A stretch of DNA of 64,000 nucleotides from Vibrio sinaloensis (lineage in GTDB: Bacteria > Pseudomonadota > Gammaproteobacteria > Enterobacterales > Vibrionaceae): the NCBI RefSeq assembly GCF_023195835.1, contig NZ_CP096200.1, forward strand, positions 248,001 through 312,000. The letters run 5' to 3'. The notes below the pieces were generated by a model that searched no databases, was not told where the DNA came from, and worked only from the letters and a program-made list of their open reading frames with translations. Within the stretch, counting starts at the first letter, position 1, and every line of letters begins with the position of its first letter. Made by a program: the position numbers and the translations under genes. Positions 13,969 to 34,742 of the stretch are shown here, piece after piece.

Positions 13969-15222
13969 CTATGAGGCTAAACTGATATCCAGTTTACCTT
14001 GGGCCAACGCTGGGGCCAGACCCGGAGTCAACGGCAAACGTGGGATCACCAAACAGTGCATTAGGTGGTAGATGTCTTGTTTGCCATCCCAAACAACGCT
14101 GGTGCCCGCTTGGTTGTTAACATCGAGCTCTTGCCACCATGAACAACCTTCGTAATCAATCAGATAAGTGCGACAGTAATCCCACCATGTGCGGTACCAA
14201 TCTTCGTACTTTTTGTCCCCAGTCACCGTGTACAAAGCGTAAGCAGTACCGATAGCTTCTACAGGCGCCCAACGAATACGTTCACGCACTACCGGTTGGC
14301 CTTCCCAATCGACTGAGTAAACAAAGCCCGGCGCACCATCAACATGCCAAGCGTCACGAACCGTCGCATCAAACAGACCAATCGCATCTTCAAGCAGCCA
14401 ATCAGGACAGTGTGCACCAATCTCTTGCAGCGTCGCACGGAGGTGACAAATCAGACGCCCCCACTCGATCCAGTGACCGGGTGTACCACCGTAGGCACGG
14501 AAGTGACTCGCTGGCGTCTCTTTGTTGTAGTCTGGCAGCGGGTTAAAGTCAGAATCAAAGTGCTCGTTAACACGGTAGTTCAGACCTTTCGCCGTTTTAT
14601 TGATCATAAACTCTGTGATGTTGAGAGCGCGATCGAGCCACTTTTGATCTTTGGTTACATCGTAAACAATCAAGAAGGCTTCGACTGAGTGCATCGCCAT
14701 GTTACCACCACGATAGTCCTCCGTTTCGGTCCAAGCTTGATCCCAAGACTCAAAACACATCTGCTTTTCTTCTATCCAGAAGTGATTTTCATAGACGTTA
14801 ATGGCTTCATCTAATAAGGCCTGTGCACGCGGGTGACCCGTGGTTACCGCGCTCGCAGCACCAAGCAACACAAACGCATGTTGGTAGCCTTGCTTGGATG
14901 AATCCATAATCCCTTCGCCTTGGTTGTCGATAGTCGCGAACCAACCACCATGCTCTTTATCTTTTAACGGACCTTCAAGCGCCTTAATGCCGTGCTCAAC
15001 CAGATCGTAAGCCCCTGGACGGCCCATGTGTGCGGCTAAAGCGTAACAGTGAAGCATGCGCGCAGTAATCCACAGGCGCGTGCCCATTTCTTCTCGAACA
15101 TTGCCATTATTGCCAATCCAGCCAAAGCCGTTTTCGACCACAGCGTTGCGGCCAAATTCGAAGATACGATCAGTTTCGGCGTCTAACCATGTAGTGTGAG
15201 AGCGAGTATTAATCCATTTCAT
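13969..15222 (-). CDS. yihS: Sulfoquinovose isomerase (YihS, AGE superfamily)
   Basis: This enzyme converts sulfoquinovose to sulfofructose, the first intracellular step of the sulfo-EMP pathway. At 417 residues it is collinear with E. coli YihS (413). From the opening [20 protein letters not shown] onward there are shared blocks such as [33 protein letters not shown] and [15 protein letters not shown], which carry the Arg and His residues used in isomerisation. It is the last gene of the aldolase-dctQ-dctM-EIIB-yihS run on the minus strand. Family members also act on mannose, but the surrounding yihQ, yihU, yihV and csqR homologues make sulfoquinovose by far the best substrate. Confidence 0.93.
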
Positions 15223-15270
15223 TTCAACGTTACCTTAAAATACTTATTTATAGTCTTATTCGAATTTTGT

Positions 15271-15537
15271 TTAGCATGACGCTTGCTTTCTAAGCTCATC
15301 TGCCAGATTGTGCACATCAAAGAACACCACCTGAATCTGGTTCTCGGGTAATCGGATAAATCCCAGAGCCCCTTGACGGCGCAGGAGCTGCTCATCAACC
15401 GCCCCCATATCTTTCACTTGAATTCTTAAACGGGTCGCGCAATTGTCGATCTTGCCATCTTGGATATTTTTAATACCGCCTAACGCATCTAGGATCTTAT
15501 GCGCTTTTGCTTGTAAGTTGCCTTTGTCATTAATCAT
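15271..15537 (-). CDS. Stand-alone PTS EIIB domain (glucose/sucrose type)
   Basis: This 88-residue protein is a complete glucose-family PTS IIB domain with its phosphoryl-carrier Cys33 in the motif DNCATRLRIQV. No membrane IIC or IIA partner is encoded nearby, and SQ enters this cell by a TRAP system rather than PTS. It lies between dctM and yihS in the same orientation (about 105 bp and 48 bp gaps), so it is probably co-transcribed with them. It could sense phosphorylation state to regulate the island, be a remnant of a lost PTS permease, or pair with a IIC elsewhere. The domain call is firm; the role is unknown. Confidence 0.75.
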   Translation of the reverse strand: MINDKGNLQAKAHKILDALGGIKNIQDGKIDNCATRLRIQVKDMGAVDEQLLRRQGALGFIRLPENQIQVVFFDVHNLADELRKQASC

Positions 15538-15642
15538 CTGCTGTTTTCTCCAGAGATGAGCGGCTTGGCGCTATGCTCATCTCATTGATATTGATTGCTT
15601 GGTCGTTGTGTTATTTAACACATAGGTACTTGGTGGTTATTA

Positions 15643-16932
15643 CTACATGATGCCGACCAATTGAGGTAATCCGATAACCAGTTGAGGGAAGCATGACACG
15701 AGGAAAATCAGTGCAATCTCAACCATCAAGAAAGGCACAATCTTGCGAGAGATTTCTGACACCGGCACTTTAGACACCCCAGACGCCACAAACAGAACCA
15801 ATCCCATGGGAGGTGTCGCCAAGCCAATCGATAGGTTGGCACACATCACCACGCCGAAGTGGACTGGGTCGATGCCTGCACTGATCATGATCGGTGCAAA
15901 GATTGGAGCGAAGATAAGAATCGCAGGGCCGGCATCGAGGAACATACCGATGATGAACAGTAGAACGTTGATAATCGCAAACAGTAAGTATGGGTTATCG
16001 GTTATACCGTTCATGAAGTCAGCGACCATATTCGATACGCCAGACAGACTAATCAATGAAGCAAAACCACTAGCCGCCGCGACAATGATAAGGATCGAGG
16101 CTGCGTTAACTGCTACTTTGGCAAACAGTGCATAAGTCGCTTTGGTGTTGGTTACTTTGATGATAAACAGCGACACTGCAATCGCGTAAGCAACGGCCAC
16201 TGCCGCAGCTTCAGTCGGTGTAAAGATACCACCGTAGATACCCCCGAGGATGATCACTGGAGTCATCAAAGGAAGCAGTGCCAGACGGAAGGCTTGCTTA
16301 CGCTCCATCGCGGGCGCTCGCTCCATTGGCTGAACACTCGGATATTTGCGAATCTGGAATTTGTTCATGATCATCAAGCCAATACAGAAGATGATCCCTG
16401 GAGTGACACCCGCTAAGAACATCGCCGCTACAGACGTATTCATAACGAACGCGTACAACAACATGATACCCGATGGTGGAATAATATTACCTAGCACCGT
16501 TGCGGCTGCAGTTAGTGCCGCTGAATAGCCTGTGTCATATTTATATTTCTTCATTTCAGGGATCAGCATGCCACCAATCGCTGAAGTTGCGGCGACAGCC
16601 GACCCCGTTAGCGCACCGAAAATGGTTGCGGCCAGAATGACAACATGACCTAAACCACCACGTAAGTGCTGTACCATGGTTTGCGCAAACGCGATGATAC
16701 GTGGCGTGATGCCGCCAGCAGTCATACACTCGCCCGCTAACATAAAGAACGGCAATGCCAGTAGTAAGAAACTATCTAAACCCGAATACAGACGCTGATA
16801 CAACATGTTTGCGAACAGCATTTGATCGTTTTGGAACAAAGTAATCATAGGTGATAGGCCCAGTGTGAATAGGACTGGTACACCAATGATTAACAGAATC
16901 ATAAAGTAGAGTAAGAAAATCGGAGAAACCAT
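15643..16932 (-). CDS. dctM: TRAP transporter large permease (DctM family), candidate sulfoquinovose importer
   Basis: This is the large membrane subunit of a TRAP importer lying inside the sulfoquinovose operon. It has 429 residues, the standard length. VLGNIIPPSGIMLLYA and GLATPPMGLVLFVASGV are family signature regions. The ATG follows GAGGGTG and lies 12 bp after dctQ. The matching binding protein is not next door; the only unpaired dctP in the window is at 33693-34742, upstream of the sulfoquinovosidase. In E. coli this job belongs to the MFS carrier YihO, and no YihO homologue is seen here. Transport of DHPS rather than SQ is the main alternative, since DHPS TRAP systems are known. Confidence 0.88.
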   Translation of the reverse strand: MVSPIFLLYFMILLIIGVPVLFTLGLSPMITLFQNDQMLFANMLYQRLYSGLDSFLLLALPFFMLAGECMTAGGITPRIIAFAQTMVQHLRGGLGHVVILAATIFGALTGSAVAATSAIGGMLIPEMKKYKYDTGYSAALTAAATVLGNIIPPSGIMLLYAFVMNTSVAAMFLAGVTPGIIFCIGLMIMNKFQIRKYPSVQPMERAPAMERKQAFRLALLPLMTPVIILGGIYGGIFTPTEAAAVAVAYAIAVSLFIIKVTNTKATYALFAKVAVNAASILIIVAAASGFASLISLSGVSNMVADFMNGITDNPYLLFAIINVLLFIIGMFLDAGPAILIFAPIFAPIMISAGIDPVHFGVVMCANLSIGLATPPMGLVLFVASGVSKVPVSEISRKIVPFLMVEIALIFLVSCFPQLVIGLPQLVGIM

Positions 16933-16944
16933 TATAACACCCTC

Positions 16945-17568
16945 TTAAGCCGCAGTTTCTGATGCCAGTGACTGCGTTTGCTTTGGCTCTTGTTCTGGCG
17001 CCTCTTCCGTGGCGGCAGGAGCTTCAAAAAGTCCAGCTGTCTTAGCTGTCTGTGATACATCTTCAAAATCACCCAACATAGCGCGCATTGCAGCGATGCT
17101 CTTTTGCACAGCATAGAGGATGGTGATTGCCATCATTACAGGTGGGATGATGTACACCACGAACATTGGGATTGGCAGGCTATCCGCCATAACCGAACCT
17201 GTTTCAAAGAAATTCCAGCCAAACTTAATCCAGACAGCGAATACAATGATCGCAGCGATGTGCGCTAATAAAGTGAGAAATGCAAAGAGTCTAGGCGTTT
17301 TCTTTTCAAGAATTTCTGTAACAAAGGTCATCGCTATATTCTTGTCTGTCAGGTAAACAAACGGCAAACATAGATAAGTCATGTAAATCATTAAGAATCT
17401 TGAAGATTCGTCTGTCCAACTAAGTGGAATATTGAGGATATAACGGAACAAAACTTGTGCAACGACGATCAGTGTCATCACTAGCAGTAAAATGCCCGCA
17501 ATATGACGCAACACCCGAGACAGAGGCGTCGTTACCGTGTTCAGTGCTTTTTCGATGGCTCGTAACAT
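16945..17568 (-). CDS. dctQ: TRAP transporter small permease (DctQ family), candidate sulfoquinovose importer
   Basis: This is the small membrane subunit partner of the adjacent DctM. It has 207 residues, longer than most DctQ proteins. Four helices occupy residues 20-160, with PLSWTDESSRFLMIYMTYL as the conserved region. A hydrophilic tail of about 45 residues rich in Ala, Glu, Gln and Thr follows. The tail is low-complexity and its role is unknown. The gene lies between the aldolase and dctM. Confidence 0.86.
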   Translation of the reverse strand: MLRAIEKALNTVTTPLSRVLRHIAGILLLVMTLIVVAQVLFRYILNIPLSWTDESSRFLMIYMTYLCLPFVYLTDKNIAMTFVTEILEKKTPRLFAFLTLLAHIAAIIVFAVWIKFGWNFFETGSVMADSLPIPMFVVYIIPPVMMAITILYAVQKSIAAMRAMLGDFEDVSQTAKTAGLFEAPAATEEAPEQEPKQTQSLASETAA

Positions 17569-17645
17569 TGAATCACCATTATTGGATTAGAAAATTAACG
17601 GGCGCCTTTCATTCAGCACCCTAGCTATGAGCTATTTGGTGATTA

Positions 17646-18509
17646 TTATTTTGCTTTGCCGTTAGAACCAAATAGACGAATTTTGTGTTGAACCACTTCT
17701 TTCATTGAAGCAATACCGCTGTTCATCACATCGGCCAGAATGTAGTCGGTTTCATTCTCGCGCCAATGAGCTTGTACTCCATGAATGAAGCCTTGACGAA
17801 GCTCAGTATCGACGTTGATTTTCGCCACGCCGCGTTTAACCGCTTCCATAACTTGATCATCAGGAACACCCGAACCACCGTGCAGAACGATCGGCTTCTT
17901 CACTGCTTCTTTAATTTCTGACAACCGATCAAATTTTAGCTCTGGGGTAGTTTTGTAAACGCCGTGCGCCGTACCGATAGACACTGCGAGATAGTCAACG
18001 CCAGTACGTTCTGAGAAGTCCAATGCTTCTTCGACTGTCGTGATCATGGCATCTTTTTCATCCACAGTGATGTCATCTTCTGTGCCGCCAATTTTACCAA
18101 TTTCACCTTCAGCACCTAAACCGAGCGCGTTGGCTACATCAACTACCGCTTTAGTAATACGGATATTGTCTTCGAACGGCAGTGCCGAACCATCAAACAT
18201 CAGCGATTGGAAATCACGAGTTGCCGCTTCCATACACTGTTCAAACTTGCGGCTGTGGTCGAGGTGTATACAGATTGGAACCGTAGTTTGATGGTGCTGA
18301 ATTAATGAGTCAACAGCATCGCGTAGTGGCTTCATGCCCATTTCGTTAATGGCTTTTTGACCAATCTGAATCATGATCGGCGATTTTTCTTCTTCTGCTG
18401 CTAAAAGTACTGCTTTAATTGTTTCTAGGTTGTGAGCCGTGAAAGCACCGATTGCGTAACCGTTATTCCACGCTTCTTGAATCATCGTTTTACCAGATAC
18501 GTAAGGCAT
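17646..18509 (-). CDS. Class II (Zn-dependent) aldolase, predicted sulfofructose-1-phosphate aldolase
   Basis: In this context the enzyme should split 6-deoxy-6-sulfofructose-1-phosphate into DHAP and sulfolactaldehyde. The start is set at MPYVSGKTMIQEAW (287 aa) with AAGGGAAT upstream; the longer frame runs into the promoter. Class II marks are clear: HLDHS for the catalytic Asp and a zinc-ligand His, GAEGEIGKIGG, the zinc His in GTAHGVYK and in VLHGGSGV, and NVDTELR for the phosphate. E. coli uses the unrelated class I aldolase YihT, so this is a non-orthologous replacement. From memory, class II aldolases have been reported in a sulfo-EMP variant of Arthrobacter. Ordinary fructose-bisphosphate or tagatose-bisphosphate aldolase is the alternative; position as first gene of the yihS operon argues for the sulfosugar role. 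Confidence 0.82.
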   Translation of the reverse strand: MPYVSGKTMIQEAWNNGYAIGAFTAHNLETIKAVLLAAEEEKSPIMIQIGQKAINEMGMKPLRDAVDSLIQHHQTTVPICIHLDHSRKFEQCMEAATRDFQSLMFDGSALPFEDNIRITKAVVDVANALGLGAEGEIGKIGGTEDDITVDEKDAMITTVEEALDFSERTGVDYLAVSIGTAHGVYKTTPELKFDRLSEIKEAVKKPIVLHGGSGVPDDQVMEAVKRGVAKINVDTELRQGFIHGVQAHWRENETDYILADVMNSGIASMKEVVQHKIRLFGSNGKAK

Positions 18510-18581
18510 TGTGTTTATTCCCTTATATTGAATTTGTTTTGAAGAGCGTTGTTTCGTTAGCAATAAAGTAGCAGTCTTGAT

Positions 18582-18620
18582 TGTCCATTTCTGTTATCTA
18601 GATAACATTTAATGTCCATT
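18582..18620 (-). promoter_or_regulatory. Candidate CsqR operator array at the aldolase-yihS operon
   Basis: A perfect 16-bp palindrome, TGTTATCTAGATAACA (18592-18607), is flanked by two direct copies of TGTCCATT (18582-18589 and 18613-18620). TGTCCATT or a one-base variant recurs in the yihU/yihV gap and in front of the glycyl radical operon, so it is a plausible box for the DeoR-type regulator encoded at 21043. Read on the minus strand the copies give AATGGACA, which may also serve in the promoter. Confidence 0.6.
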
Positions 18621-18885
18621 AAGTGACAATAATTACCACAAATGTACACCTAGTCACAAAACACATGAATAATTGGCTTTTATGCATGGCCTCTGGGACA
18701 TGCCAAGTTTGGATTGTTACTTATGCGCAAAAAAACGCGTTGACCCAAAACAAGATTTGTTCAGTAATGAAGAAGAGAGAATATCAGCAGCGCTTTACCC
18801 ATAAGGGAAACAAGTGAATCTATCAAGCTGATTTAGCGATAAAAAATGATGAAGCCAGCCTAACTCGTGCTGAATAAATCTCGCA

Positions 18886-18923
18886 TAAAAAAGGCCTTGA
18901 ACGACAAACGTCGATACAAGGCC
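18886..18923 (-). terminator. Rho-independent terminator of yihU
   Basis: On the minus strand GGCCTTG pairs with CAAGGCC around an inner CGAC/GTCG stem, followed by a run of seven T (the forward AAAAAAA at 18887-18892 region). It lies about 120 bp past the yihU stop. Confidence 0.7.
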
Positions 18924-19040
18924 AAACAAACATTGGTGACTCAGGCTGCCTGCAAATAACTCAGGCAATCACTGCCTGTTGAGAAAAGTTGTCCGTTATT
19001 GTTGATTTCTGTCTTTAAAATACAATTTGTCTCAAGCAGG

Positions 19041-19934
19041 CTATTGAATTTTTGGCTCTAACCCAGAAGTGACACGTAGATGCTCTAACACTGCGGTCCA
19101 ATCTTGGCGACCACGTCCTGCCGCACGCGTCATACTATATAGTTCACGAGAGGCCGCTCCACATGGCATCGGCACGTTTACTTGGTTTGCTAGATCAAGG
19201 GCAATACCCAAATCTTTATGCGCAAGGTCAACCATAAATACTGGCGAGAGATCCCCAGCCAATACCTTACCCGGCCATGTGGTGGTAAAGTGCCCTTTAC
19301 CTGCTGGGGTACCACTCATCACTTTCATTGCCGTTTCCCACTCTAGGCCAATGGCTTCAGTGAGCGTCGCCGCTTCTGCAGAAAGGGCGTTGAGCGCAAT
19401 ACTCATGTAGTTGTTGATGATTTTGACTCGAATACCTTTACCGACGCCGCCACAATCTACCGTCTCACTCCCCATACAATCAAACAGTGGTTGAGCACGT
19501 TCAATCTGCTCTTTTGTCCCACCTGCCATGATCAGAAGCTCACCTTTAACGGCATGCTCAGAAGTACGACCCACTGGCGCTTCCATCATAGAGAAACCTT
19601 TGGCGGTCATTTCTTTCGCTAGCGAGTCTGTTTCTAGCGGGTGAATAGTCGACATATCAATCAGAAGAGCATTTTTATCCAACGTAGAAGCCACCCCGTT
19701 TTCACCAAAGATAACGTTCTTCACCAACGTGCCATTGGGGAGCATGGTTACCACAAACTCAGAATCTATCGCTGCGTCGGCAGGAGATGAAGCGGCAGCC
19801 GCTCCTTGCGCAACTAAGTGTTGAACCGCTTCTTCATTGATATCAAATACTTTTAGTGTGTGGCCACCTTTGATTAAGTTGAGTGCCATTGGGGAGCCCA
19901 TCTGGCCCAGCCCAATAAATCCAATCGTCGACAT
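19041..19934 (-). CDS. yihU: Sulfolactaldehyde reductase (YihU, 3-hydroxyisobutyrate dehydrogenase family)
   Basis: This enzyme reduces 3-sulfolactaldehyde with NADH to 2,3-dihydroxypropane-1-sulfonate (DHPS). It has 297 residues, as in E. coli (298). [15 protein letters not shown] is the dinucleotide fold at residues 5-20. PVGRTS and the catalytic Lys region [19 protein letters not shown] match E. coli YihU nearly residue for residue, as do [10 protein letters not shown] and [10 protein letters not shown]. An AAGGAA site precedes the ATG. It is transcribed alone, divergent from the sulfofructose kinase, and shares their operator region. Here DHPS is probably not only a waste product, since a radical lyase and a sulfite exporter lie in the same locus. 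Confidence 0.93.
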
Positions 19935-20017
19935 GTTTAAATTCCTTCACATTAGCGGATAAGTTGCATTCAATATAAACGTTAATCCGCTCTTTGACCG
20001 CAATGAATGTCACATTT

Positions 20018-20057
20018 TGTCCGTTAATGTCCATTTTGGTTGTTTTGTGATTATACT
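20018..20057 (+). promoter_or_regulatory. Candidate CsqR operators and yihV promoter
   Basis: TGTCCGTT (20018-20025) and TGTCCATT (20028-20035) lie ten bases apart. The second overlaps the expected -35 position for a TATACT -10 at 20052-20057, which would suit repression of yihV-csqR. A TATATT at 19972-19977 on the minus strand is a possible -10 for yihU. Confidence 0.5.
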
Positions 20058-20136: not shown

Positions 20137-21024
20137 ATGACAATTGCATGTGTAGGTATTACCGTATTAGACCGAATTCAGCGTGTCGCTAATTTGCCAA
20201 CCACTGGTGGCAAGTATGTCGCTAAAGATTATTTTGAAGTTGGTGGAGGCCCTGCAGCCACTGCAGCTGTTGCGGTAGCTAAGCTCGGTCACCCTGTCGA
20301 CTTTATTGGCCGTGTTGGCCAAGATGGTGTAGCCGATACTATGTTGACTGAACTTGCCAGTTACGGCGTTGGTATAGACAAAGCCGTACACATCAATGGC
20401 GCCTCTTCTGCATTCTCAGCGGTCTTAGTTGATGATGAAGGTGAAAGAATGATCATTAATTACCAAGATCCATCATTGAGTCGTGACCCGAAAGCGTTAG
20501 AGAGTGTTGATTTCTCTCAGTACCAAACCGTACTGACCGATGTTCGTTGGCCCGAGGGCGCTAAGTTCGCTCTAGAACAAGCCAAAAGATATAGTATCCC
20601 CTCAGTACTCGATGCTGACGTCGCCCCAGATCCGATCGAAGATCTGGTTAAACTGGCTGACCATGTGGCATTTTCTGAGCCGGGTCTAGAGAAATTTACT
20701 GGCTGCAACGACCCTATTGAAGGTCTGAAACTTGCTCAGAAACAAACAGATGGCAAAGTTTATGTTACTGTAGGCTCCAAAGGTTGTTACTGGCTAGAGA
20801 ATGGTCAAGTGTGCCATGAGCCTGTCATTAAGGTAGACGTTGTCGATACAACCGGCGCGGGCGATGTTTTTCATGGCGCTTTGGCGGTTGCCGTCGCAGA
20901 ATCTAAACAAAGTCGTGAAAGTATTGTTTTCTCTAATACCGTTGCAGCGCTAAAATGCACCAAGAGAGGTGGTCGAGAAGGAATCCCGACTAGAACCGAA
21001 GTGGACCAAAAATTACAAAAATAG
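20137..21024 (+). CDS. yihV: 6-deoxy-6-sulfofructose kinase (YihV, PfkB family)
   Basis: This kinase phosphorylates sulfofructose at C1 with ATP, preparing it for aldol cleavage. It has 295 residues. CVGITVLDRI at the N-terminus, VGGGPAATAAVAVAKLG (residues 35-52), DFIGRVGQDG, HVAFSEPGLEKFTG and the PfkB signature DTTGAGDVFHGALA (catalytic Asp near residue 245) all follow E. coli YihV closely. It is divergent from yihU and 18 bp before the DeoR regulator, with which it forms an operon. In E. coli the kinase and the regulator are also adjacent. Confidence 0.94.
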   Translation: MTIACVGITVLDRIQRVANLPTTGGKYVAKDYFEVGGGPAATAAVAVAKLGHPVDFIGRVGQDGVADTMLTELASYGVGIDKAVHINGASSAFSAVLVDDEGERMIINYQDPSLSRDPKALESVDFSQYQTVLTDVRWPEGAKFALEQAKRYSIPSVLDADVAPDPIEDLVKLADHVAFSEPGLEKFTGCNDPIEGLKLAQKQTDGKVYVTVGSKGCYWLENGQVCHEPVIKVDVVDTTGAGDVFHGALAVAVAESKQSRESIVFSNTVAALKCTKRGGREGIPTRTEVDQKLQK

Positions 21025-21042: not shown

Positions 21043-21798
21043 GTGACTAATCCCAGACAAGATAAGTTAATTCAGCTCGTAAATGATAAAGGTTATTACA
21101 GCGTGGAAGAGCTGGCGGAAATGTTGGACGTTTCCACCCAGACAATTCGTCGTGACATTAAGAAGCTCAGCAATGAGCGCTTGGTGATTCGTCACCATGG
21201 TGGGGCTAGCTCACCTGCGACCAAGAATAACCTAGATTACGAAGTCCGTAAGGTTTCTGATACCGAACAAAAGCACGCGATAGGTAAAGCCATTGCTGAC
21301 TTGATTCCTGACAACTCAACCGTATTCATTACCATTGGAACCACCGCAGAAGTCATCGCAAGTCACCTAGCCAGCAAAAACAACTTGCAAGTGATCACCA
21401 ATAGCCTTCGCGTCGCCAATGTTTTGCATACCAACAAATCGATTGATGTGTTGATCCCCAGTGGGAAAGTGAAAGCATTTAACGGCGGCATTGTCGGAAC
21501 CGAAGCGATGGATTTTATTTCGAACTTCCGATTTGACTATTTGGTCACCAGTGCTGCGTCGATCGACGTGGATGGCACTTTACTTGAGTATGATCTCAAC
21601 GAGACCATGATTACTCAGACCGTGATGAAATCAGCGCGACACGTAATGGTCGCGATGGACTCAAGCAAGTTCATCCCTAAAGGCTCGATTACTCTTGCCA
21701 ATATCAAAGACGTGAGTTGCTTCTTTACTGACAAACAACCAAGTCCATCTATTGAGGCAGCCGCAAAGCAAGGTGACACCGAATTAGTGATTTGCTAA
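21043..21798 (+). CDS. csqR: DeoR-family repressor, CsqR (YihW)-like
   Basis: This protein is the probable sulfoquinovose-responsive repressor of the island. It has 251 residues and a GTG start with AAGGA nine bases upstream. The DeoR helix-turn-helix lies at residues 20-45 (SVEELAEMLDVSTQTIRRDIKKL), followed by the conserved RHHGGA hinge and a ribose-isomerase-like sensor domain with FITIGTTAEVIASHL. The sequence follows E. coli CsqR, which responds to SQ and its derivatives. TGTCCATT boxes at the aldolase, yihU/yihV and glycyl-radical promoters are candidate targets. A strong bidirectional terminator follows. Confidence 0.88.
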   Translation: MTNPRQDKLIQLVNDKGYYSVEELAEMLDVSTQTIRRDIKKLSNERLVIRHHGGASSPATKNNLDYEVRKVSDTEQKHAIGKAIADLIPDNSTVFITIGTTAEVIASHLASKNNLQVITNSLRVANVLHTNKSIDVLIPSGKVKAFNGGIVGTEAMDFISNFRFDYLVTSAASIDVDGTLLEYDLNETMITQTVMKSARHVMVAMDSSKFIPKGSITLANIKDVSCFFTDKQPSPSIEAAAKQGDTELVIC

Positions 21799-22974: not shown

Positions 22975-23015
22975 GTTATTGCCTCTTATTTTTCCTTTTC
23001 TATTTGAGTGCTTTT

Positions 23016-26691: not shown

Positions 26692-26752
26692 ATTATACGA
26701 GCGCCAACAGACGCATCTGAGATGAGGGTCACAAAGCGAAACTAAATGGACA
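26692..26752 (-). promoter_or_regulatory. Predicted promoter and CsqR-like box of the glycyl radical operon
   Basis: A perfect TATAAT (forward ATTATA, 26692-26697) has only a poor -35 (TCAGAT at 17 bp), suggesting activator help. AATGGACA, the complement of the TGTCCATT box, lies at 26745-26752. Sequence next to it shares GTCACATTTTGT with the yihU/yihV intergenic region. Confidence 0.45.
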
Positions 26753-26841
26753 CAAAACAACAAAATGTGACAAAATTAGTGGTAATTAATCTCAATGATT
26801 TTATAGTTGTACGACATTCATTCACCTCAAACTTTGCTCAT

Positions 26842-27582
26842 ATGGACACCACCATCATATTTATTTCATTAATCATCGCTTTAGCGGGATTTACCCAAGG
26901 CCTGACGGGATTTGGCTCTGCGCTCGTCTCCGTCCCACTCCTTTCACTCATTGTCGGTGCCCAAACAGCCGTACCCATCGCAGGTATTTTTGGTTGGTTA
27001 GTGACCTTGCCTGTCGTGTGGAAAATGCGACACTCTATACAACGCCAAACCGGATTGATCTTATTTGCTGGCTCGGTTCCAGCGTCCTTCGTTGGTGCAA
27101 AGCTACTGGCAACCATGCCCTCTCACTACATCCTGCTGACCATGGGTATTGTTCTGGTTGTTTCTAGCGTTCATTCCATGATCTCCACTAAGCCATTGTT
27201 TAAAAAGACCTCTGTGCCAATTACCGTTGGCGCGGGTTTTACCTCTGGAGTCCTTGGCGCAAGTGTGGGTGAGTCTGGTCCTCCGGTTATTGCCTACACA
27301 TCAATGCAGCCATGGACTGCCGACCAAACTAAATCCACGCTTGCGTTCTTTTTTATGTTGCAGATGATTGGGGCCAACATCAGTTTCTGGAATGAGGGGT
27401 TGATTACCGAAGCGGTGGTATCACATGTCATTTCAGCTCTGCCTGCATTCGCGGTAGGCTTAACTGGCGGCATGATTGGCTACCACTACTTGCAAAAATA
27501 CAACATTGACTACCACAAAATTGTTCATGGTTTCTTGTTGGTGATTGGCTGTATGCTGGTATTCAAGAATGTCAGTTTTTAG
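26842..27582 (+). CDS. TauE/SafE-family sulfite/organosulfonate exporter
   Basis: This membrane permease probably exports sulfite released by the radical lyase. The start is set at MDTTIIFISLIIALAGF, giving 246 residues, the normal family length; the longer frame adds 32 polar residues. About eight membrane helices are visible. The repeated family motif shows in FTQGLTGFGSALVSVPLLSLI near the N-terminus and in GAGFTSGVLGASVGESGPPVIAY in the second half. It is divergent from the glycyl radical operon, separated by their shared regulatory region, which ties its job to C-S cleavage. TauE-type proteins also move sulfoacetate or other anions, so the substrate is inferred. Confidence 0.82.
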   Translation: MDTTIIFISLIIALAGFTQGLTGFGSALVSVPLLSLIVGAQTAVPIAGIFGWLVTLPVVWKMRHSIQRQTGLILFAGSVPASFVGAKLLATMPSHYILLTMGIVLVVSSVHSMISTKPLFKKTSVPITVGAGFTSGVLGASVGESGPPVIAYTSMQPWTADQTKSTLAFFFMLQMIGANISFWNEGLITEAVVSHVISALPAFAVGLTGGMIGYHYLQKYNIDYHKIVHGFLLVIGCMLVFKNVSF

Positions 27583-27754: not shown

Positions 27755-28531
27755 ATGAAAATCGATCAGGTTGACCCCAAAGAAATATCGATGCTATTCA
27801 ATCGCTATAAGAAAAAAGCGGCGATAATTGACCGCTACTGGAACATGAAAACCGTCAAGTTTTGGAACTCAAGCGTAGGGAAGTTTATTGGTTTTATACC
27901 TATTCTTTGTTTTCTAGGACTACTTGGCATCAATATAAAGCGATTGGTCGTAGGCAATGAAGCCATGGTTATCACCTGGTCTCTATCGTTTATATCTTTA
28001 CTAGTCGCTTTGAAATTAAAAAAGGTCACAGGATTTATCCTAAAACGATCAACCTTCAAGGGTAAGATTAAAAAGCTCATCATTGATTACGCTATTCAAC
28101 AGCTTCCCAAAGAACAGCAATCAACGACCAACCTGGCGGCTAAAAAGCACTCAAAATACAAGCGGTTCGTCGGTGCTATTTGGTTAACTTCGGCACTGGG
28201 AGCGACTTTCTTCTTGTTGTTCGATGTCCTAATTAATACAGACCCGAACGCTGCCATCCGAGAGTGTTTTTCACTGTCACTTGTACTCAACCTACTCGCA
28301 ACCTTGTATCTCTTTTTTTTCGATGAGATAACCTTTTCTCTCGTTCTAGGGGATTACTCTGTTGAAGCATCCAGAGATCAAGACAGATCTACAATTCAAT
28401 TAAAAGGTAGCGACAGGAGTGTTAATATTTCGACGAGTGAATCAGAGACCTCAGGGTCGTTGACAAAAAGCGATGGGAGCGAAATCAAAATCACTGCTGA
28501 TTCAGACACAGTCAACGTTGAGACTAAATAG
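27755..28531 (+). CDS. Unrecognised membrane protein with a Ser/Thr/Asp-rich tail
   Basis: This 258-residue protein was not recognised. It has a basic N-terminal stretch of about 40 residues, two hydrophobic segments near residues 48-90, a Lys-rich loop, and two more near 145-200. A hydrophilic C-terminal tail of about 55 residues follows, rich in Ser, Thr, Asp and Lys with repeating S-x-S-x patterns. Base composition is visibly more AT-rich than the neighbours. It sits between the sulfite exporter and gldA but has its own ATG and a terminator on each side, so it is probably a separate transcript. No sulfoglycolysis role is evident. Confidence 0.6.
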   Translation: MKIDQVDPKEISMLFNRYKKKAAIIDRYWNMKTVKFWNSSVGKFIGFIPILCFLGLLGINIKRLVVGNEAMVITWSLSFISLLVALKLKKVTGFILKRSTFKGKIKKLIIDYAIQQLPKEQQSTTNLAAKKHSKYKRFVGAIWLTSALGATFFLLFDVLINTDPNAAIRECFSLSLVLNLLATLYLFFFDEITFSLVLGDYSVEASRDQDRSTIQLKGSDRSVNISTSESETSGSLTKSDGSEIKITADSDTVNVETK

Positions 28532-28594: not shown

Positions 28595-29680
28595 CTATTC
28601 TAAACCAAGCTTATGCGCAGTCAGGAGCGCGGCATAAACCGACTTAGCCGTCACCGGGAACGGCATGTTATGAATGGTCTCACCTTCTGCACAAGATGCT
28701 TCGGCCACTTCCATCAGCTTGTCGTTATTTAGCTCTTTTACTCCCATTTGGTGCAAGTTTGTTGGCAGGCCAACCGCACGACAGAAGTTGAGTACTTCTT
28801 CGATCTCAGCTTGTGGTGCATTCTCTAGAACAAGCTGGGTAAGTGTACCAAATGCCACTTTCTCGCCGTGCAACAGGTGGTGACACTCTTCGAGTTTAGT
28901 CAGGCCATTGTGAATAGCGTGCGCAGCTGCAAGACCCGAGCTTTCAAATCCAATACCCGATAGGTATGTGTTCGCTTCAATGATGTTTTCCACCGCTTTG
29001 GTCGACACACCATTTTCTACCGCCGCTTTGGCTTTTACCCCATCGGCAATTAGCGTTTCATAACACAATTTTGCCAAAGCTTGCGCAGAGCGGGTCGGCG
29101 CTCCACCCGCCATGGTCGCCTTGCCAGACAAACCATTGGCACGCGCTTCAAAGTAAGTGGATAGCGCATCACCCATACCTGCAACCAGTGTACGAACTGG
29201 CGCTGCTGCAATAATGCCAGTGTCCATGATCACCATGTTAGGGTTAGAAGGGAACAGTAGATACTCACTAAACTCACCTTCAGGAGTGTAGATTACCGCT
29301 AGTGCAGACGTTGGCGCATCCGTCGATGCAATGGTCGGTACAATAACAACCGGAACTTTAGAGTAGTACGCCACCGCTTTTGCCGTATCAAGTGTTTTGC
29401 CGCCACCGATACCAATGATCACGTCGTTACCTTGTTGCATGCTCACTTCGATTAAGCGATCAATCTCGACGCGCGAGCACTCTCCGGCAAATGTATCGAA
29501 GTATGCTTGAAGACCTTCACCAACAATGCTGGTTTCAGCGCGGTCACGAACCAAACCCATAACGAAATCATCCGCAATCGCCAGTGGCTTCTTGCCAAAC
29601 ACCGAGACGTATTTACCGATGTTATCCAGTGCGCCTTCACCTTGGATGTATTTACTTGGAGATATGATAATGTTGTCCAT
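28595..29680 (-). CDS. gldA: Glycerol dehydrogenase / hydroxyacetone reductase (GldA)
   Basis: This NAD-dependent, Zn-containing alcohol dehydrogenase oxidises glycerol to dihydroxyacetone and readily reduces hydroxyacetone to 1,2-propanediol. It has 361 residues. The NAD-binding GIGGGKTLDTAKAVA is near residue 95, the metal-site His residues are in GLAAAHAIHNGL and HHLLHGEKVAFG, and the Asp in VAGMGDALSTYFEARA. It is the last gene of the dctP-yihQ-dhaK-gldA operon, 73 bp after dhaK. Two roles fit: using glycerol freed from sulfoquinovosyl glycerol, and disposing of hydroxyacetone from the radical enzymes while regenerating NAD. Confidence 0.92.
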   Translation of the reverse strand: MDNIIISPSKYIQGEGALDNIGKYVSVFGKKPLAIADDFVMGLVRDRAETSIVGEGLQAYFDTFAGECSRVEIDRLIEVSMQQGNDVIIGIGGGKTLDTAKAVAYYSKVPVVIVPTIASTDAPTSALAVIYTPEGEFSEYLLFPSNPNMVIMDTGIIAAAPVRTLVAGMGDALSTYFEARANGLSGKATMAGGAPTRSAQALAKLCYETLIADGVKAKAAVENGVSTKAVENIIEANTYLSGIGFESSGLAAAHAIHNGLTKLEECHHLLHGEKVAFGTLTQLVLENAPQAEIEEVLNFCRAVGLPTNLHQMGVKELNNDKLMEVAEASCAEGETIHNMPFPVTAKSVYAALLTAHKLGLE

Positions 29681-29753: not shown

Positions 29754-31376
29754 TTAGAACTGACTAAAGACAGTTTCAACAGCAAATGCACCGGGATCTT
29801 TGGTGCCCGAAAGGCTGTCGCTATTAAGGTATGAAGAACGGCCAGCTTTGGCATTGGTCATAGCCACAGTGGCTTCTGCGCCTGATTTTGCCGCTTCAAT
29901 TGCTCCTACAAACCCATTTGCGACCCATGCCTCTAGCGCAGGATGAAGTGCATCAACCATAGTTCGGTCACCCGGTTTTGCGCCGCCGTAAGCCATCATT
30001 TGAGCTAACCCCTCTTGTAGCGCTCTCGGCAAAGATTGGTTGTGTTCGTAGTCTCGACCAGCAGCGGTAAACATAATAGAAAGCAGCACACCAGAAGAGC
30101 CTCCCATCACTGAGGTTAGGCAATCCGCTACTATGGTCAGCAGCTTAGCTTTATCTTGCAGAGGTAGCTGTTTAGCTTCCAGTTGCGCGAGGACTTTACG
30201 GGCACCTGCTGCGAAGGTAGAGCCTGTATCCCCATCACCGACAATCGAATCTAAGCGGTTGAGCTCTGCTTCTATATCAATGATCGACTGACAAACTTTA
30301 GACACAACGAGCGCAGTTTCTTCATCGTGAGACGGCATAAATGCCTGCTTGGTGATGTAGTTGGTACACTTGGTTACCGGCACTTCACGGCAAGCCACCA
30401 CACCTGGCCAAGCCGCGGTTTCAACGTCAGCGCTTAGTGCGTCACTGATTTCCTCAGTGAGCTGAATAGTCGAGATTGAGAAGCCTTTCATATCAATCGC
30501 GGTCATCAGCGCGCCACTGACAATAAACTTCGCTTGTTGACCCAGTTCAGACTCCATCAACTCTTTAGCAACGATGTTCATTTCAATTGGAGATAAGCCG
30601 CCTAAATTATTAAGCAACAAGGCGTTCTCGGTGGTTGGTTTGGCCGCGAGCAGCTTACTTACCATGGTGGTCACCAGCTGTTTCGCTTGTGGCAGATCGA
30701 TGGTTTCGATGCCTGGCTCACCATGAATGCCTAATCCTAGCTCGGCTTTTCCTTGAGCAATGCGATCGTTGCTTTCACCTGGCAGTGAACAGCTGGTTAG
30801 CGCTACGCCGATAGAGGCTGTTTTCTCATGCGCGTCTATGGCTGCCTGTTTCACTTCCTCTAGTGAAGCGCCACATTCTGCCACGTAACCCGCGACTTTT
30901 TGCACGAACAAGGTACCAGCAATACCACGCGGTTGAGGGTTATCTGGAATTGAGATGTCGTCACCAACCACTATCAAGTCGACATTGCGTCCCATTTCTT
31001 TGGCCTTTTCGACAGCCAAGCCAAAATTCAAACGATCGCCCGTGTAGTTCTTAATGATGACCAAACAGCCCGCTTCCCCTGTCACGTGTAGAATCGCATT
31101 CAACACAGCATCAACGCTTGGCGCGGCGAACAAATTGCCACAGACCGCCGCTGTGAGCATGCCTTTACCGACAAAGCCCGCATGCGCAGGTTCGTGACCA
31201 GAGCCACCCCCACAAATCACCGCGACTTTGTCTTTGTTCCAGTCGCTGCGCGCCACTACTTTGATATCGTTATCAAAGTCCAAGAAAGTAAGGTTTTCGC
31301 GGGCACTGGTGTAGAGAGTGCCTTCGATAGAGTCCATCACGAACGACTCTTTGTTGTTTAAGATTAGATCAGACAT
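29754..31376 (-). CDS. dhaK: ATP-dependent dihydroxyacetone kinase, fused DhaK-DhaL
   Basis: This enzyme phosphorylates dihydroxyacetone to DHAP. It has 540 residues, with both domains in one chain as in the Citrobacter-type ATP-dependent enzyme rather than the PTS-dependent E. coli set. The N-terminal DhaK domain carries GGGSGHEPAHAGFVGKGML, IIKNYTGDRLNFG and the substrate-binding His in GLGIHGEPG. The C-terminal DhaL domain carries GDGDTGSTFAAGA and MGGSSGVLLS for ATP. It is co-oriented with yihQ upstream (106-bp gap) and gldA downstream. With GldA it would channel glycerol into glycolysis anaerobically. Confidence 0.92.
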   Translation of the reverse strand: MSDLILNNKESFVMDSIEGTLYTSARENLTFLDFDNDIKVVARSDWNKDKVAVICGGGSGHEPAHAGFVGKGMLTAAVCGNLFAAPSVDAVLNAILHVTGEAGCLVIIKNYTGDRLNFGLAVEKAKEMGRNVDLIVVGDDISIPDNPQPRGIAGTLFVQKVAGYVAECGASLEEVKQAAIDAHEKTASIGVALTSCSLPGESNDRIAQGKAELGLGIHGEPGIETIDLPQAKQLVTTMVSKLLAAKPTTENALLLNNLGGLSPIEMNIVAKELMESELGQQAKFIVSGALMTAIDMKGFSISTIQLTEEISDALSADVETAAWPGVVACREVPVTKCTNYITKQAFMPSHDEETALVVSKVCQSIIDIEAELNRLDSIVGDGDTGSTFAAGARKVLAQLEAKQLPLQDKAKLLTIVADCLTSVMGGSSGVLLSIMFTAAGRDYEHNQSLPRALQEGLAQMMAYGGAKPGDRTMVDALHPALEAWVANGFVGAIEAAKSGAEATVAMTNAKAGRSSYLNSDSLSGTKDPGAFAVETVFSQF

Positions 31377-31482
31377 AGTTGTTCCAGATATTGTTCAAAC
31401 GAATTGGGTCAGTACCTCCATTTCTGGAGGCACTAAGCTATGGTTTTAATAATGAATTTGTTTTGTTGGCTAAGTGGTTTAG

Positions 31483-33489
31483 CTAGATATTTTTGATGGC
31501 ATCAAACAACTGCGCATCTTGAGATTGCTTGCGGTAGAACACCGGCGGTTGACCGATGGGTGCATCGACTTTAACCCAACCACCAGTAAAGGTTTCACCA
31601 CTCCATACGTGCACCCACTCATCTTCCGGTAGGTACAACTCCTTAACCGTCTCGCCTTGGTTGTAGACCGGAGCCACCAGCACATCACGACCAAATAGAT
31701 ACTGATACTGAATCTGGTACGCCTCTGAATCTTGCTCATAGTGCATGAACAATGGACGTTGTACTGGCATACCTTTGCTTGCGTTCTCTTCAACCGCAGC
31801 TTTTAGGTACGGCTTAAGGTGCTTGTAAATCTTGGTCATGCGGGCCAGGTGCGCTAGCGTCTCTGCGTCAGTATCGAACTGGTGGTTGTCACCAGGTCGG
31901 TTACCTTCATGGCTGCGCATAATCGGGGTAAACGCCGCCATTTCAGCCCAGCGCTGGAAGAGCTCTTTCGAGCGCGTATTGCCGTGTAAAGTAGTGTATC
32001 CACCAATATCGCTGTGGCTAATACCATTACCCATTAAGCCAGCAGAAAGCGCCGCTGGGATCACCGAGGCCAGACCATCATCTTTCTCCCAAATAACCGA
32101 TTGGTCACCAGCCCAGAGTGCATGGCAATAGCCTTGCATGCCCGTTGCACCTGCACGCATGAAGAACAGAATATCGTCGATTTTTCCTGCTTCTTCAATC
32201 GCTTCATGTTGCACTTTAGCCCAGCGGTACGGCCATTTGTTGTGCTCAATTTCGGCGCTCACACCATTGTGCAGTGAGCAATCTGTTGGTAGGTATTCAC
32301 CGAAGTCTCCCATCCAACCATCAAGACCTAAATCAATCATGTTTTTCTGAATAACGCCTTTGTACCATTCACAGGCTGCTGGGTTGGTAAAGTCAACCAC
32401 ACCGCAGAAGAACTCACCAAAGTCGACCACATATTTTGAGCCATCTTCTTTCGTCGCTAGGTAACCTTTTTCCAATGCTTCATCATACAATGGGAAGTTT
32501 TCTAGAACGTACGGGTTGATGTAGCCCAAGAAACGGATGCCATCTTCCTTCAACTGATGGATTTTGCTGTCTAGCTCTGGATAGAGTTCTTCGTTCCAAT
32601 GCCAGTCCCATTGCAGACGCTTACCAAACGAAGTCATCTTGATACCCTGCCAATCTTGGCACCAAGCCCCAGCGACCTCTACGCCAGCTTCACGGGCAGC
32701 AGCAAGCTTATCTAAGGTAATCTGCGTGCCACCTTGAATACCTAAGATCACTCCGTTGTAAACCCATTCAGGGAGTGCAGGTTGACGACCAAAAACGTCG
32801 GTAATGTTGGTCATCAGCTCTGGGAACGACTCTTCAGCATCTAGCAACAAGTATTGTGGAATATTCCAGCACTGAAGCTCATGGTATTGAGGGTGACTAA
32901 AGTCAAAGTCCGCATAGGCCGTGGTTTCTAGGTGACAGAAATACTTTTTGTCAGAAACAAACGTTGGTTGTGGATAGTTGGTTGTGTAGTAGTCGCCACC
33001 CGCCTTGTCTTTAACGTCTGCTTGCCAAGTGGTGTAAGTGTTTTTGTTACGACCGACGCCTGGCTCCGAGCTCCAGAGCGGGAAGTTTTTACCGCGCAGA
33101 TTTAGGTAACTTAATTGCTCACCGCAGCCGTAGACCGACTCCTCTTCCGTCGCGGATACACGTACCCAGAAGCGATTGTATCTCTGCTCTAGGGCAGTAA
33201 ATTCTGCTTTTAGGCGCGTCTCAGCTGTTTCAAAAATACGCACTTCTAGCGCGGGAGTCGCATCCAATAAAAAGGTTACAGCGATGCCATCTGAGTTTTC
33301 AGCAATCGAGAATTTTCTCAACGGTAAGCGCTCTGAAACATAATCAGAGATGTCAAAGTTACCCCGGTACATATCGAATGTTCCTTCGCCAATACCAAGA
33401 TAGAATGCAGGGCTTAATTCGGAGTGTTCGAAAACAACGTTATTTTTGTGGCTGATCGTAAAGCCATTTGGGGTTTGAATCAGTTTCAT
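31483..33489 (-). CDS. yihQ: Sulfoquinovosidase (YihQ, GH31)
   Basis: This glycoside hydrolase releases sulfoquinovose from sulfoquinovosyl glycerol and related sulfolipid fragments. The start is the ATG at 33489 (668 aa) with GGAAG upstream, rather than a TTG five codons earlier. The residues that define sulfonate recognition in E. coli YihQ are present at a constant offset of -10: Gln252, Gln278, Arg291, Trp294 and Tyr498, with nucleophile Asp395 (WMGDFGEYLP) and acid/base Asp462 (WAGDQ). This separates it from ordinary GH31 alpha-glucosidases. No signal peptide is seen, so it acts in the cytoplasm and the glycoside must be imported whole. It lies between a TRAP binding protein gene and dhaK-gldA. 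Confidence 0.95.
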   Translation of the reverse strand: MKLIQTPNGFTISHKNNVVFEHSELSPAFYLGIGEGTFDMYRGNFDISDYVSERLPLRKFSIAENSDGIAVTFLLDATPALEVRIFETAETRLKAEFTALEQRYNRFWVRVSATEEESVYGCGEQLSYLNLRGKNFPLWSSEPGVGRNKNTYTTWQADVKDKAGGDYYTTNYPQPTFVSDKKYFCHLETTAYADFDFSHPQYHELQCWNIPQYLLLDAEESFPELMTNITDVFGRQPALPEWVYNGVILGIQGGTQITLDKLAAAREAGVEVAGAWCQDWQGIKMTSFGKRLQWDWHWNEELYPELDSKIHQLKEDGIRFLGYINPYVLENFPLYDEALEKGYLATKEDGSKYVVDFGEFFCGVVDFTNPAACEWYKGVIQKNMIDLGLDGWMGDFGEYLPTDCSLHNGVSAEIEHNKWPYRWAKVQHEAIEEAGKIDDILFFMRAGATGMQGYCHALWAGDQSVIWEKDDGLASVIPAALSAGLMGNGISHSDIGGYTTLHGNTRSKELFQRWAEMAAFTPIMRSHEGNRPGDNHQFDTDAETLAHLARMTKIYKHLKPYLKAAVEENASKGMPVQRPLFMHYEQDSEAYQIQYQYLFGRDVLVAPVYNQGETVKELYLPEDEWVHVWSGETFTGGWVKVDAPIGQPPVFYRKQSQDAQLFDAIKNI

Positions 33490-33596
33490 TGAGGCGGCTT
33501 CCAAAATTTGGGTAAAAGGGTACCAATCACATTGATGCTAGAGGTCAAAATGCGAGTTAAATTACCGATAACGGTTTGGTTTTATTTGCTTTTAGG

Positions 33597-33625
33597 CCTT
33601 ACCGCTCCGCGATGGAGCGGTAAGG
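33597..33625 (-). other. Strong hairpin between dctP and yihQ
   Basis: CCTTACCGCTCC and its exact complement form a 12-bp stem with a 5-base loop in the 203-bp gap. No U-run follows on the transcribed strand, so it is more likely an mRNA stabiliser or partial attenuator than a full terminator, letting the binding protein be made in excess over YihQ. Confidence 0.6.
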
Positions 33626-33692
33626 TAATTGGTGTGGCGCACGTTAGGGAAATGCGCCGTATTTTACGTGTTTACTGAGTGCTAATACTCAA

Positions 33693-34742
33693 TTAGTTAA
33701 ACTGAATGTTGTAGTCAGCTTGAATCTTGGCTTCACATGTTTTGATTTCACTTTCAAAACGCTCTAGCCATTTTTGACCTTCTGCTCCCGCAGATTGCAA
33801 GAATGACGCTTTCACTGGTGCAGATGCCACCTTGAAGGCCTCTTTCTCTGCTGCGCTTGGGTTGTAGATCACACCAGCTGCTTTCTTAAACTCTTCATAC
33901 GCTGTGTATTCTTTGTGTTTTGGATATGAACGTAGATATTGATTCTGTGCAGCGATACCGTCGATCACGACTCTCTTCAAATCATCTGGGAATGATTTAA
34001 ACTTCTTGTCGTTGAATACCCATGCGCCGCCCATGTAACCGTGACCATCAAGGATCATATAACCAAGGCTTTCATGGAACTTGTTCATGATGATATCAAC
34101 AATACCATTCTTAGTGCCGTCAACCATGCCGGTCGATAACGCAGTATAAACTTCAGGCCACGCGATTGGGGTTGGTGCACCACCAAGCTCTTTCACTAGC
34201 TCTTGTTGAACTTTCGCAGGAACCGTACGCAGCTTAAGACCTTTCACATCGTCAGGGCTCTTAACTTGCTTTTTGGTTGTTGCGATATTACGCCAACCAC
34301 CTGAGTTAGATACCGCCATCAAACGCACGTTTGGTGCTCTCTTAAGCAGCTCAGAACGTACATCACCAAGGAACTGTTCGTTGTCGTAGACACACTCTGC
34401 AACACGGTCATTTGGTAGCATGTATGGAAGGTCAAACGCGCCTACTGGCTGCCAGAAGTTACCTAGCTCAGGAATGGTCGTTTGGAAGTAATCAAACATG
34501 CCCGCTTGAACGCCAGCAATACATTCTTTTGCGTTCGAGCACAGCTGTCCTGATGGATAAATATCTACCTCAATTTGACCATTTGAACGTGATTCGACAA
34601 AGTTCTTGAACACAAGCAACGACTGATGGTTATAACCATCAGTAGACGTTACGTGTGGGACAGTTAGCTTATAATCCGCAGCGTTTACCGCTCCAGCGGC
34701 AAGAATAGACGCGGCAGCTAGGCTCATAAGTGTTTTTTTCAT
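33693..34742 (-). CDS. dctP: TRAP substrate-binding protein, candidate sulfoquinovose or sulfoquinovosyl-glycerol receptor
   Basis: This is a periplasmic DctP-type receptor. The start is set at MKKTLMSLAAASILAAG with AAGGAAA upstream, giving 349 residues and a normal signal peptide cut after VNAA; the long frame adds 34 unlikely residues. The family Arg region GLKLRTVPAKVQQELVKELGGAPTPI and the ALSTGMVDGTKNGIVDI segment are present. No permease gene is beside it; unpaired dctQ and dctM lie at 15643-17568 in the same island. It heads the operon with yihQ, so the natural ligand is probably sulfoquinovose or its glyceryl glycoside. It is divergent from a LysR gene. Confidence 0.85.
   Translation of the reverse strand: MKKTLMSLAAASILAAGAVNAADYKLTVPHVTSTDGYNHQSLLVFKNFVESRSNGQIEVDIYPSGQLCSNAKECIAGVQAGMFDYFQTTIPELGNFWQPVGAFDLPYMLPNDRVAECVYDNEQFLGDVRSELLKRAPNVRLMAVSNSGGWRNIATTKKQVKSPDDVKGLKLRTVPAKVQQELVKELGGAPTPIAWPEVYTALSTGMVDGTKNGIVDIIMNKFHESLGYMILDGHGYMGGAWVFNDKKFKSFPDDLKRVVIDGIAAQNQYLRSYPKHKEYTAYEEFKKAAGVIYNPSAAEKEAFKVASAPVKASFLQSAGAEGQKWLERFESEIKTCEAKIQADYNIQFN

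Follow-up and report, generated by a model that had tools for sequence, protein, structure and literature searches.

A hybrid sulfoglycolytic island of Vibrio sinaloensis predicted to ferment sulfoquinovosyl glycerol to 3-hydroxypropanesulfonate

The smaller contig of the two-contig, 4.17 Mb genome of Vibrio sinaloensis (assembly GCF_023195835.1, contig NZ_CP096200.1) contains an island for the breakdown of sulfoquinovose (SQ). It spans positions ~13969-35818 of the 64-kb stretch analysed here (bases 248001-312000 of the contig, henceforth the window), as assessed by profile searches of the predicted proteins. We consider it quite probable that the island represents an extended hybrid sulfo-Embden-Meyerhof-Parnas (sulfo-EMP) pathway, which would ferment sulfoquinovosyl glycerol (SQ-glycerol) and convert 2,3-dihydroxypropane-1-sulfonate (DHPS) to 3-hydroxypropanesulfonate (3-HPS) with the C-S bond intact. 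The original prediction, made from the DNA alone, had proposed that the same genes lead through to C-S bond cleavage, with export of sulfite and formation of hydroxyacetone or 1,2-propanediol. Its assignment of the genes was borne out: homologues of YihQ, YihS, YihV, YihU and CsqR lie where it had placed them and form a complete sulfo-EMP set (44-68% identity to Escherichia coli K-12), and family searches recovered the glycyl radical enzyme, its activase and a TauE/SafE protein. Beyond that list, the island contains a class II aldolase, an aldose-1-epimerase family protein, the components DctQM and DctP of a tripartite ATP-independent periplasmic (TRAP) transporter, GldA, a one-chain dihydroxyacetone kinase (DhaK) and an open reading frame (ORF) of 88 amino acids (Table 1).

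From these genes we infer the following substrates and product. The TRAP transporter would import SQ or SQ-glycerol, and YihQ would split the latter. YihS, YihV and the class II aldolase would convert SQ to dihydroxyacetone phosphate (DHAP) and sulfolactaldehyde, and YihU would convert sulfolactaldehyde to DHPS. Without oxygen, the radical enzyme HpfG, activated by HpfH, would convert DHPS to 3-sulfopropionaldehyde (3-SPA), from which an NADH-dependent reductase (YihU by preference, or GldA) would produce 3-HPS, thus providing a second NADH sink. The 3-HPS would probably leave the cell via the TauE protein, GldA and DhaK would deliver the glycerol half to DHAP, and CsqR would probably use one operator to repress both the yih promoter and the hpf promoter.

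The radical enzyme (24057-26588) scores 1607 bits against NF048009, the model of the Klebsiella-type HpfG, compared to 476 bits against NF048011, the model of the Desulfovibrio-type HpsG (cut-off of 1000 bits in both cases). Both models carry the same 'dehydratase' description at NCBI, and the distinction between them therefore rests on the gene names of the models and on the published work. In the latter, HpfG dehydrates DHPS to 3-SPA, which is reduced to 3-HPS, with no C-S cleavage, by HpfD, the reductase of the described pathways; HpsG, in turn, converts DHPS to sulfite and hydroxyacetone (PMC12890257, PMC11489063, PMC9594981). By its sequence, the window enzyme is HpfG, a DHPS dehydratase. 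It therefore probably leaves the C-S bond in place, so that sulfite is unlikely to be the end product. The HpsG of Bilophila and Desulfovibrio belongs to the same superfamily and shares the substrate, but the window enzyme falls below the HpsG cut-off, such that cleavage is not expected. Complete desulfonation of SQ by this island, as originally predicted, is thus not supported, and C-S cleavage appears unlikely.

The best match of the window HpfG among the sequences of the PDB is the B12-independent glycerol dehydratase (620 bits). The active-site residues of this enzyme, which we take to be His164, His281, Ser282, Cys433, Glu435, Asp447, Tyr640 and Gly763, align with H205, H322, S323, C478, E480, D492, Y692 and G819 of the window protein. 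Among the eleven alignment positions examined, all eight of these equivalents are invariant in 104 HpfG rows (92 distinct). The sulfonate-binding residues of IslA are Arg189, Gln193 and Arg678 (IslA numbers); in the columns inferred to correspond to the first two, the HpfG rows contain Ala (93/104) or Gly (11/104) and His (104/104), respectively. Examination of the lineage of HpfGs to which the window protein belongs (the window lineage; 32 rows, 23 distinct, conserved at 95%) against the remaining HpfGs (72 rows, 69 distinct, conserved at 90%) shows a sole internal separating position, A597, occupied in the rest by Gly (68/72) or Ala (4/72), in addition to ragged N-terminal columns. The tree placement suggested with the original prediction was obtained in part: the window protein falls inside HpfG, its nearest neighbours being another group from Vibrionaceae and, next to that, a sequence from Fusobacteria. 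The tree was made by a quick method and comprised 49 distinct HpfGs (of 92) together with 10 further radical enzymes, with no HpsG or IslA row among them. The window lineage appears there as a single group (support of 93, not starred, several outgroups being long branches), nested among HpfGs of which many are encoded together with HpfD.

These data bear directly on the alternative whereby DHPS is cleaved to sulfite and hydroxyacetone, GldA makes 1,2-propanediol and TauE exports the sulfite. GldA and DhaK would suit hydroxyacetone, TauE/SafE is named as a family of sulfite exporters, and the lack of an HpfD orthologue together with a different TauE (see below) means that the downstream chemistry could differ. 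The two model scores, however, together with the eight invariant dehydratase positions and the single internal difference from other HpfGs, among which the lineage is nested and many of which stand beside HpfD, render this alternative very improbable. A more straightforward role for GldA and DhaK is in the metabolism of glycerol, and hydroxyacetone or 1,2-propanediol as products find no support. The same is true of sulfite export: PF01925 is also the family of the transporters that adjoin the canonical hpfG in Klebsiella and Hungatella, so that membership in TauE/SafE does not point to sulfite.

The distribution of the genes was assessed in 296 Vibrionaceae genomes, and HpfG above the cut-off was found in 24 of them, including the present one. 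The window lineage accounts for 19, all of which possess both YihU and YihQ. The other five (G247, G093, G059, G200 and G125) exhibit the gene order hpfH-hpfG-tauE-Fe-ADH (the last coding for an iron-dependent alcohol dehydrogenase), and YihU (E ≤ 1e-70) and YihQ (E ≤ 1e-100) were found in none of the five. Their Fe-ADH and TauE proteins are 74-75% and 69-74% identical, respectively, to the counterparts beside hpfG in Hungatella hathewayi, a source of characterised HpfD (PMC12890257), and were taken, from their position, as HpfD and HpfE. YihU (E ≤ 1e-100) occurs in 29 of the 296 genomes, 19 with a window-lineage HpfG and 10 without HpfG above the cut-off. The co-occurrence would have p ~5e-23 if the genomes were independent, a value that is overstated because the genomes are related; all of our counts ignore this relatedness, and several of the loci are nearly identical. 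One of the genomes counted as HpfG-negative, G150, codes for a radical enzyme (locus L120) that scores 933 bits against the HpfG model and is 44% identical to the window HpfG (42% for the activase); it possibly acts on a different substrate.

The two halves of the island are also connected by their promoters. An inverted-repeat element of 43-45 bp is common to the divergent yihU/yihV and hpfG/tauE promoters, and its pattern, TGTCACA-N(24-38)-TGTGA, has two copies in the window (0.25 expected; 3 of 100 shuffles reach two). In relatives, where the shuffles preserved single-base composition only, the element (up to one mismatch) precedes hpfG in 16 of the 22 loci of the window lineage (0.35 expected) and yihU in all 19 loci that possess this gene, of 20 taken (0.2 expected). 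It is likewise present upstream of yihU in the seven genomes examined among the ten that possess YihU but no HpfG above the cut-off (0.07 expected). Of the 16 hpfG elements, 15 match that of the window at 35-41 of 44 positions; the remaining one (L129, 22 of 44) is probably a chance occurrence. The element is kept where hpfG is distant from the yih genes, on different contigs in G237 (a two-contig genome), G253 and G132 and at ~38-61 kb in G143, G289 and G182. Outside the lineage, where the hpf genes begin with hpfH, it was found upstream of this gene in one of 18 loci (0.3 expected; 19 taken, one without hpfH) and upstream of hpfG in none of nine (0.68 expected), the latter being a misplaced control since hpfH precedes hpfG in those loci. 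The yihU-yihV gap of E. coli contains TGTCACTTTTTGT, one base off an element half (observed by eye; chance not computed). The strict pattern occurs three times in the whole genome, two of these being the island copies, and a reversed control likewise three times; no unlinked reductase was seen under the element in the genome. As judged from the sequences, CsqR is probably the protein that binds it. The first in-frame ATG of the tauE ORF (26746) falls inside the element, and the true start of this gene is therefore probably located downstream.

Shared boxes in three island promoters had already been noted in the original prediction, and four of the five copies of TGTCCATT in the 64 kb are indeed found there. 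The count itself is weak (mean of 2.47 expected; 8 of 100 shuffles reach five), and the 8-mer is poorly conserved, being present in 2 of 22 hpfG upstream regions of relatives. It was rejected as the operator on these two grounds, in preference for the longer element, which encloses the boxes at 20028 and 26745. The two boxes at the aldolase promoter are outside it; near that promoter, the longer pattern recurs with one mismatch at 18654-18700. Because YihU and YihQ co-occur with this type of HpfG and the promoter element is shared, there is strong support in the sequences for sulfoglycolysis and the radical enzyme forming one pathway, as the original prediction had supposed in placing the two halves in series.

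Several points weigh against a conversion of SQ to 3-HPS by this route, or against our assignment of its steps. The element was not found at 6 of the 22 hpfG upstream regions (L130, L138, L139, L145, L148 and L016). Vibrio mediterranei AbY-1905 was reported to release stoichiometric DHPS from SQ in shaken culture (PMC13372026), and Enterocloster clostridioformis, which possesses HpfGHD, is described as having made DHPS, with no 3-HPS observed; genes therefore need not mean flux. The search for oxidation of 3-SPA in the manner of Enterococcus gilvus, whose HpfX/HpfYZ add an oxidising branch to the published pathway, was confined to the island. Finally, GldA is present in all 19 window-lineage genomes (at least 74% identity) and is thus as perfectly associated with HpfG as is YihU. 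The AbY-1905 and E. clostridioformis reports would favour DHPS as the end product of SQ, with HpfG either silent or acting on outside DHPS only. The published HpfG is oxygen-sensitive (PMC9594981, PMC11489063), however, so that shaken cultures do not test its role, and the shared element and the 19/19 co-occurrence with YihU also argue against a DHPS end point, which we regard as unlikely.

We therefore return to fermentation to 3-HPS and to the identity of its last enzyme. An HpfD orthologue was detected in 0/19 window-lineage genomes, compared to 5/5 in the other Vibrionaceae lineage. Among the 19, the best HpfD match passing 1e-60 shows 41% identity, and eight genomes have no such match; in the V. 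sinaloensis genome the best match (38-39%) falls short of HpfD membership. In the absence of HpfD, either YihU or GldA would have to reduce 3-SPA. We tentatively favour YihU. The substrate of YihU is already a sulfo-aldehyde, which differs from 3-SPA by one hydroxyl, and its promoter carries the element. In addition, the title of Saito et al. 2009 (via PMC4197876) describes E. coli YihU as a hydroxybutyrate dehydrogenase that acts on succinic semialdehyde, the carboxylate counterpart of 3-SPA.

GldA as the 3-SPA reductase is a variant of the same pathway, overlapping with it in probability, and we consider it possible but the weaker choice. Its presence throughout the lineage compares with 5 of the 10 genomes that possess YihU and lack HpfG, and with 38 of 148 in a sample of the genus (HpfG carriers included; 27 of the 38 at 74% identity or more); in the other HpfG lineage, two of five genomes have it at similar identity and a third at 43%. 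In G210 (L139), gldA and hpfG share a strand, with gldA ~0.15 kb upstream; in G250 (L164), gldA adjoins csqR where the sulfo-EMP cluster ends. On the other hand, the island GldA is only 23-25% identical to HpfD, which rules it out as an orthologue, although it may still substitute for HpfD in function. The one-chain dhaK and yihQ are followed by gldA in the window and in five relatives, a grouping that fits glycerol, and in the HpfG-negative G151, G168 and G207 it lies ~4 kb from yihU. From this grouping, and by analogy with published systems, GldA and DhaK probably salvage the glycerol of SQ-glycerol. The publications found on sulfopropionaldehyde contain, in the parts consulted, no proposal of either YihU or GldA as its reductase. 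Two HpfG-like genes, each with a TauE gene beside it, are present in Chakrabartyella piscis (L057), and a GldA-like dehydrogenase (46%) occupies a site where HpfD is often found.

The island TauE and the TauE proteins encoded next to hpfG in Hungatella and Klebsiella share only 23-25% identity. The TauE beside the window hpfG thus does not qualify as an HpfE orthologue; within the genome, the comparison with HpfE covered this protein alone. The island TauE probably exports the sulfonate end product.

Much of this pathway is already in print. A 2022 review (PMC9594981) describes the sulfo-EMP cluster of Vibrio scophthalmi as containing HpfG and HpfD, and predicts 3-sulfopropanol (3-HPS) as its product; a 'marine Vibrio' is named for the same in PMC11489063. 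Like V. scophthalmi as described there, V. sinaloensis combines sulfo-EMP genes with HpfG; unlike there, no HpfD orthologue was found, and the only Fe-ADH of the island is GldA. The gene labelled HpfD (PF00465) in the review may be a GldA. The DHPS fermentation systems HpfGHD(E) of Klebsiella oxytoca, H. hathewayi and E. gilvus, as far as they are described, served for comparison: in the Klebsiella/enterobacterial, Enterococcus and Hungatella loci that were examined, HpfG shares 71-74% identity and HpfH 57-63% with the window proteins, whereas in the window lineage no HpfD orthologue was found, the TauE is a different one and the loci contain no LuxR match. V. mediterranei AbY-1905 grows on SQ in shaken flasks by a hybrid sulfo-EMP/EMP2 pathway reported in 81 Vibrio genomes (PMC13372026), and the term 'glycyl radical' does not occur in the main text of that work. 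Like the present island, it combines Yih enzymes with an aldolase of the SqiA type that replaces YihT, although its reported end product in shaken culture is DHPS and not the 3-HPS proposed here. Isolate 50 of V. mediterranei (L017), a strain other than AbY-1905, contains an hpfG preceded by the element (its HpfG is the same as that of locus L146 in G289). The combination of GldA and DhaK with a sulfoquinovosidase is known from Faecalicatena, where it was proposed to lead the glycerol of SQ-glycerol into glycolysis (PMC11659671); there, unlike here, SQ itself is degraded by a bifurcated transketolase/transaldolase route. What appears to be new is a lineage with no detected HpfD orthologue and with a TauE so distant from the canonical one.

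It is conceivable, though we put it forward with some hesitation, that this HpfG lineage shed its dedicated reductase and usual exporter upon joining the CsqR regulon, that YihU performs both NADH-dependent reductions while GldA and DhaK oxidise the glycerol arm, and that the fermentation of SQ-glycerol is thereby a nearly closed redox unit, like that of glycerol. SQ, a sulfosugar of plants and algae, is produced in gigaton amounts, and its degradation by marine vibrios, with DHPS as the end product, has been reported recently. If the proposed pathway is true, 19 of the 29 YihU-bearing Vibrionaceae genomes sampled would release 3-HPS instead of DHPS in the absence of oxygen. According to published work, Bilophila does not use 3-HPS as an electron acceptor; the nature of the product would thus change who feeds on vibrio waste, and whether hydrogen sulfide follows.

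Table 1. Features of the SQ island. Positions are those of the window; percentages are amino acid identities; bit scores are followed by the cut-off of the model where available.
Feature	Position	Strand	Evidence
YihS-type sulfoquinovose isomerase	13969-15222	-	PF07221; 67% to E. coli K-12 YihS
88-amino-acid ORF, putative lone enzyme IIB (EIIB) domain of a phosphotransferase system (PTS)	15271-15537	-	own reading of the sequence
TRAP permease DctM	15643-16932	-	PF06808
TRAP permease DctQ	16945-17568	-	PF04290
Class II aldolase, ATG read at 18510	17646-18510	-	PF01116; predicted SqiA-type role in place of YihT
YihU sulfolactaldehyde reductase	19041-19934	-	NF012005, 499.6 bits (348); 68% to E. 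coli YihU
Operator-like element, yihU/yihV divergent promoter	20008-20050	+	pattern match
YihV sulfofructose kinase	20137-21024	+	58% to E. coli YihV
CsqR, DeoR-family regulator	21043-21798	+	44% to E. coli CsqR
Aldose-1-epimerase family, candidate SQ mutarotase	21913-23052	-	PF01263
HpfH, glycyl radical activase	23016-23972	-	NF048008, 562 bits (500); radical-SAM
HpfG, predicted (S)-DHPS dehydratase, glycyl radical enzyme	24057-26588	-	NF048009; PFL-like and Gly_radical domains
Operator-like element, hpfG/tauE divergent promoter	26729-26772	-	pattern match
TauE/SafE-family putative exporter	26746-27582	+	PF01925, 82.6 bits
GldA-type glycerol dehydrogenase	28595-29680	-	NF006941, 556 bits (336)
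One-chain ATP-type dihydroxyacetone kinase (DhaK)	29754-31376	-	Dak1 and Dak2 domains
YihQ sulfoquinovosidase	31483-33490	-	NF007746, 1002 bits (553); 55% to E. coli YihQ
TRAP solute-binding protein DctP	33693-34742	-	PF03480
LysR regulator, divergent from dctP	34949-35818	+	PF03466/PF00126

The class II aldolase, in the place of the class I YihT of the classical route, suggests that the island is a hybrid of sulfo-EMP with sulfo-EMP2. The replacement of YihT by an SqiA-type aldolase has been described in such hybrid clusters (PMC9594981), including that of V. mediterranei (PMC13372026), and E. coli YihT gave no BLAST match (1e-5) among the island proteins tested. At the same threshold, the aldose-1-epimerase family protein did not match E. 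coli YihR. The island DhaK scores 524 bits against TIGR02361, below the cut-off of 575. The dctP gene is found 16 kb from dctQ and dctM within the island, and SQ or SQ-glycerol is the probable substrate of the transporter; a literature search for a TRAP transporter paired with sulfo-EMP gave no match.

The small ORF that may encode a lone EIIB domain, flanked by yihS and the TRAP genes, is conserved in the sulfo-EMP loci of several relatives (78-85% identity in L144/L046, which belong to one genome, L143, L012, L133 and L020; 44-45% in L160/L161; and a piece of 28 amino acids, 75%, at the edge of L142). Family searches found no EIIA or EIIC among the island proteins. Between tauE and gldA there is a protein of 258 amino acids (27755-28531), with membrane stretches discerned by eye and no match in Pfam or NCBIfam; among the loci of relatives it was matched (50-52%) in one genome only (L046/L144, and part of it in L151). 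Just outside the island lie a second TRAP large permease (12432-13847), 27% identical to the island DctM, and near it, in the 9133-13847 region, a sensor kinase (9133-10653) that is related to MctS but below the cut-off of that model. At the opposite end, the island is adjoined by a region (35890-40051) coding for a second glycyl radical enzyme, presumably YbiW-like, of 807 amino acids (TIGR01774, 1116 bits, cut-off 678; 34% to HpfG), together with an activase of its own and a regulator of the DeoR family. A similar trio of radical enzyme, activase and DeoR regulator is present near hpfG in Vibrio hannami (L015).

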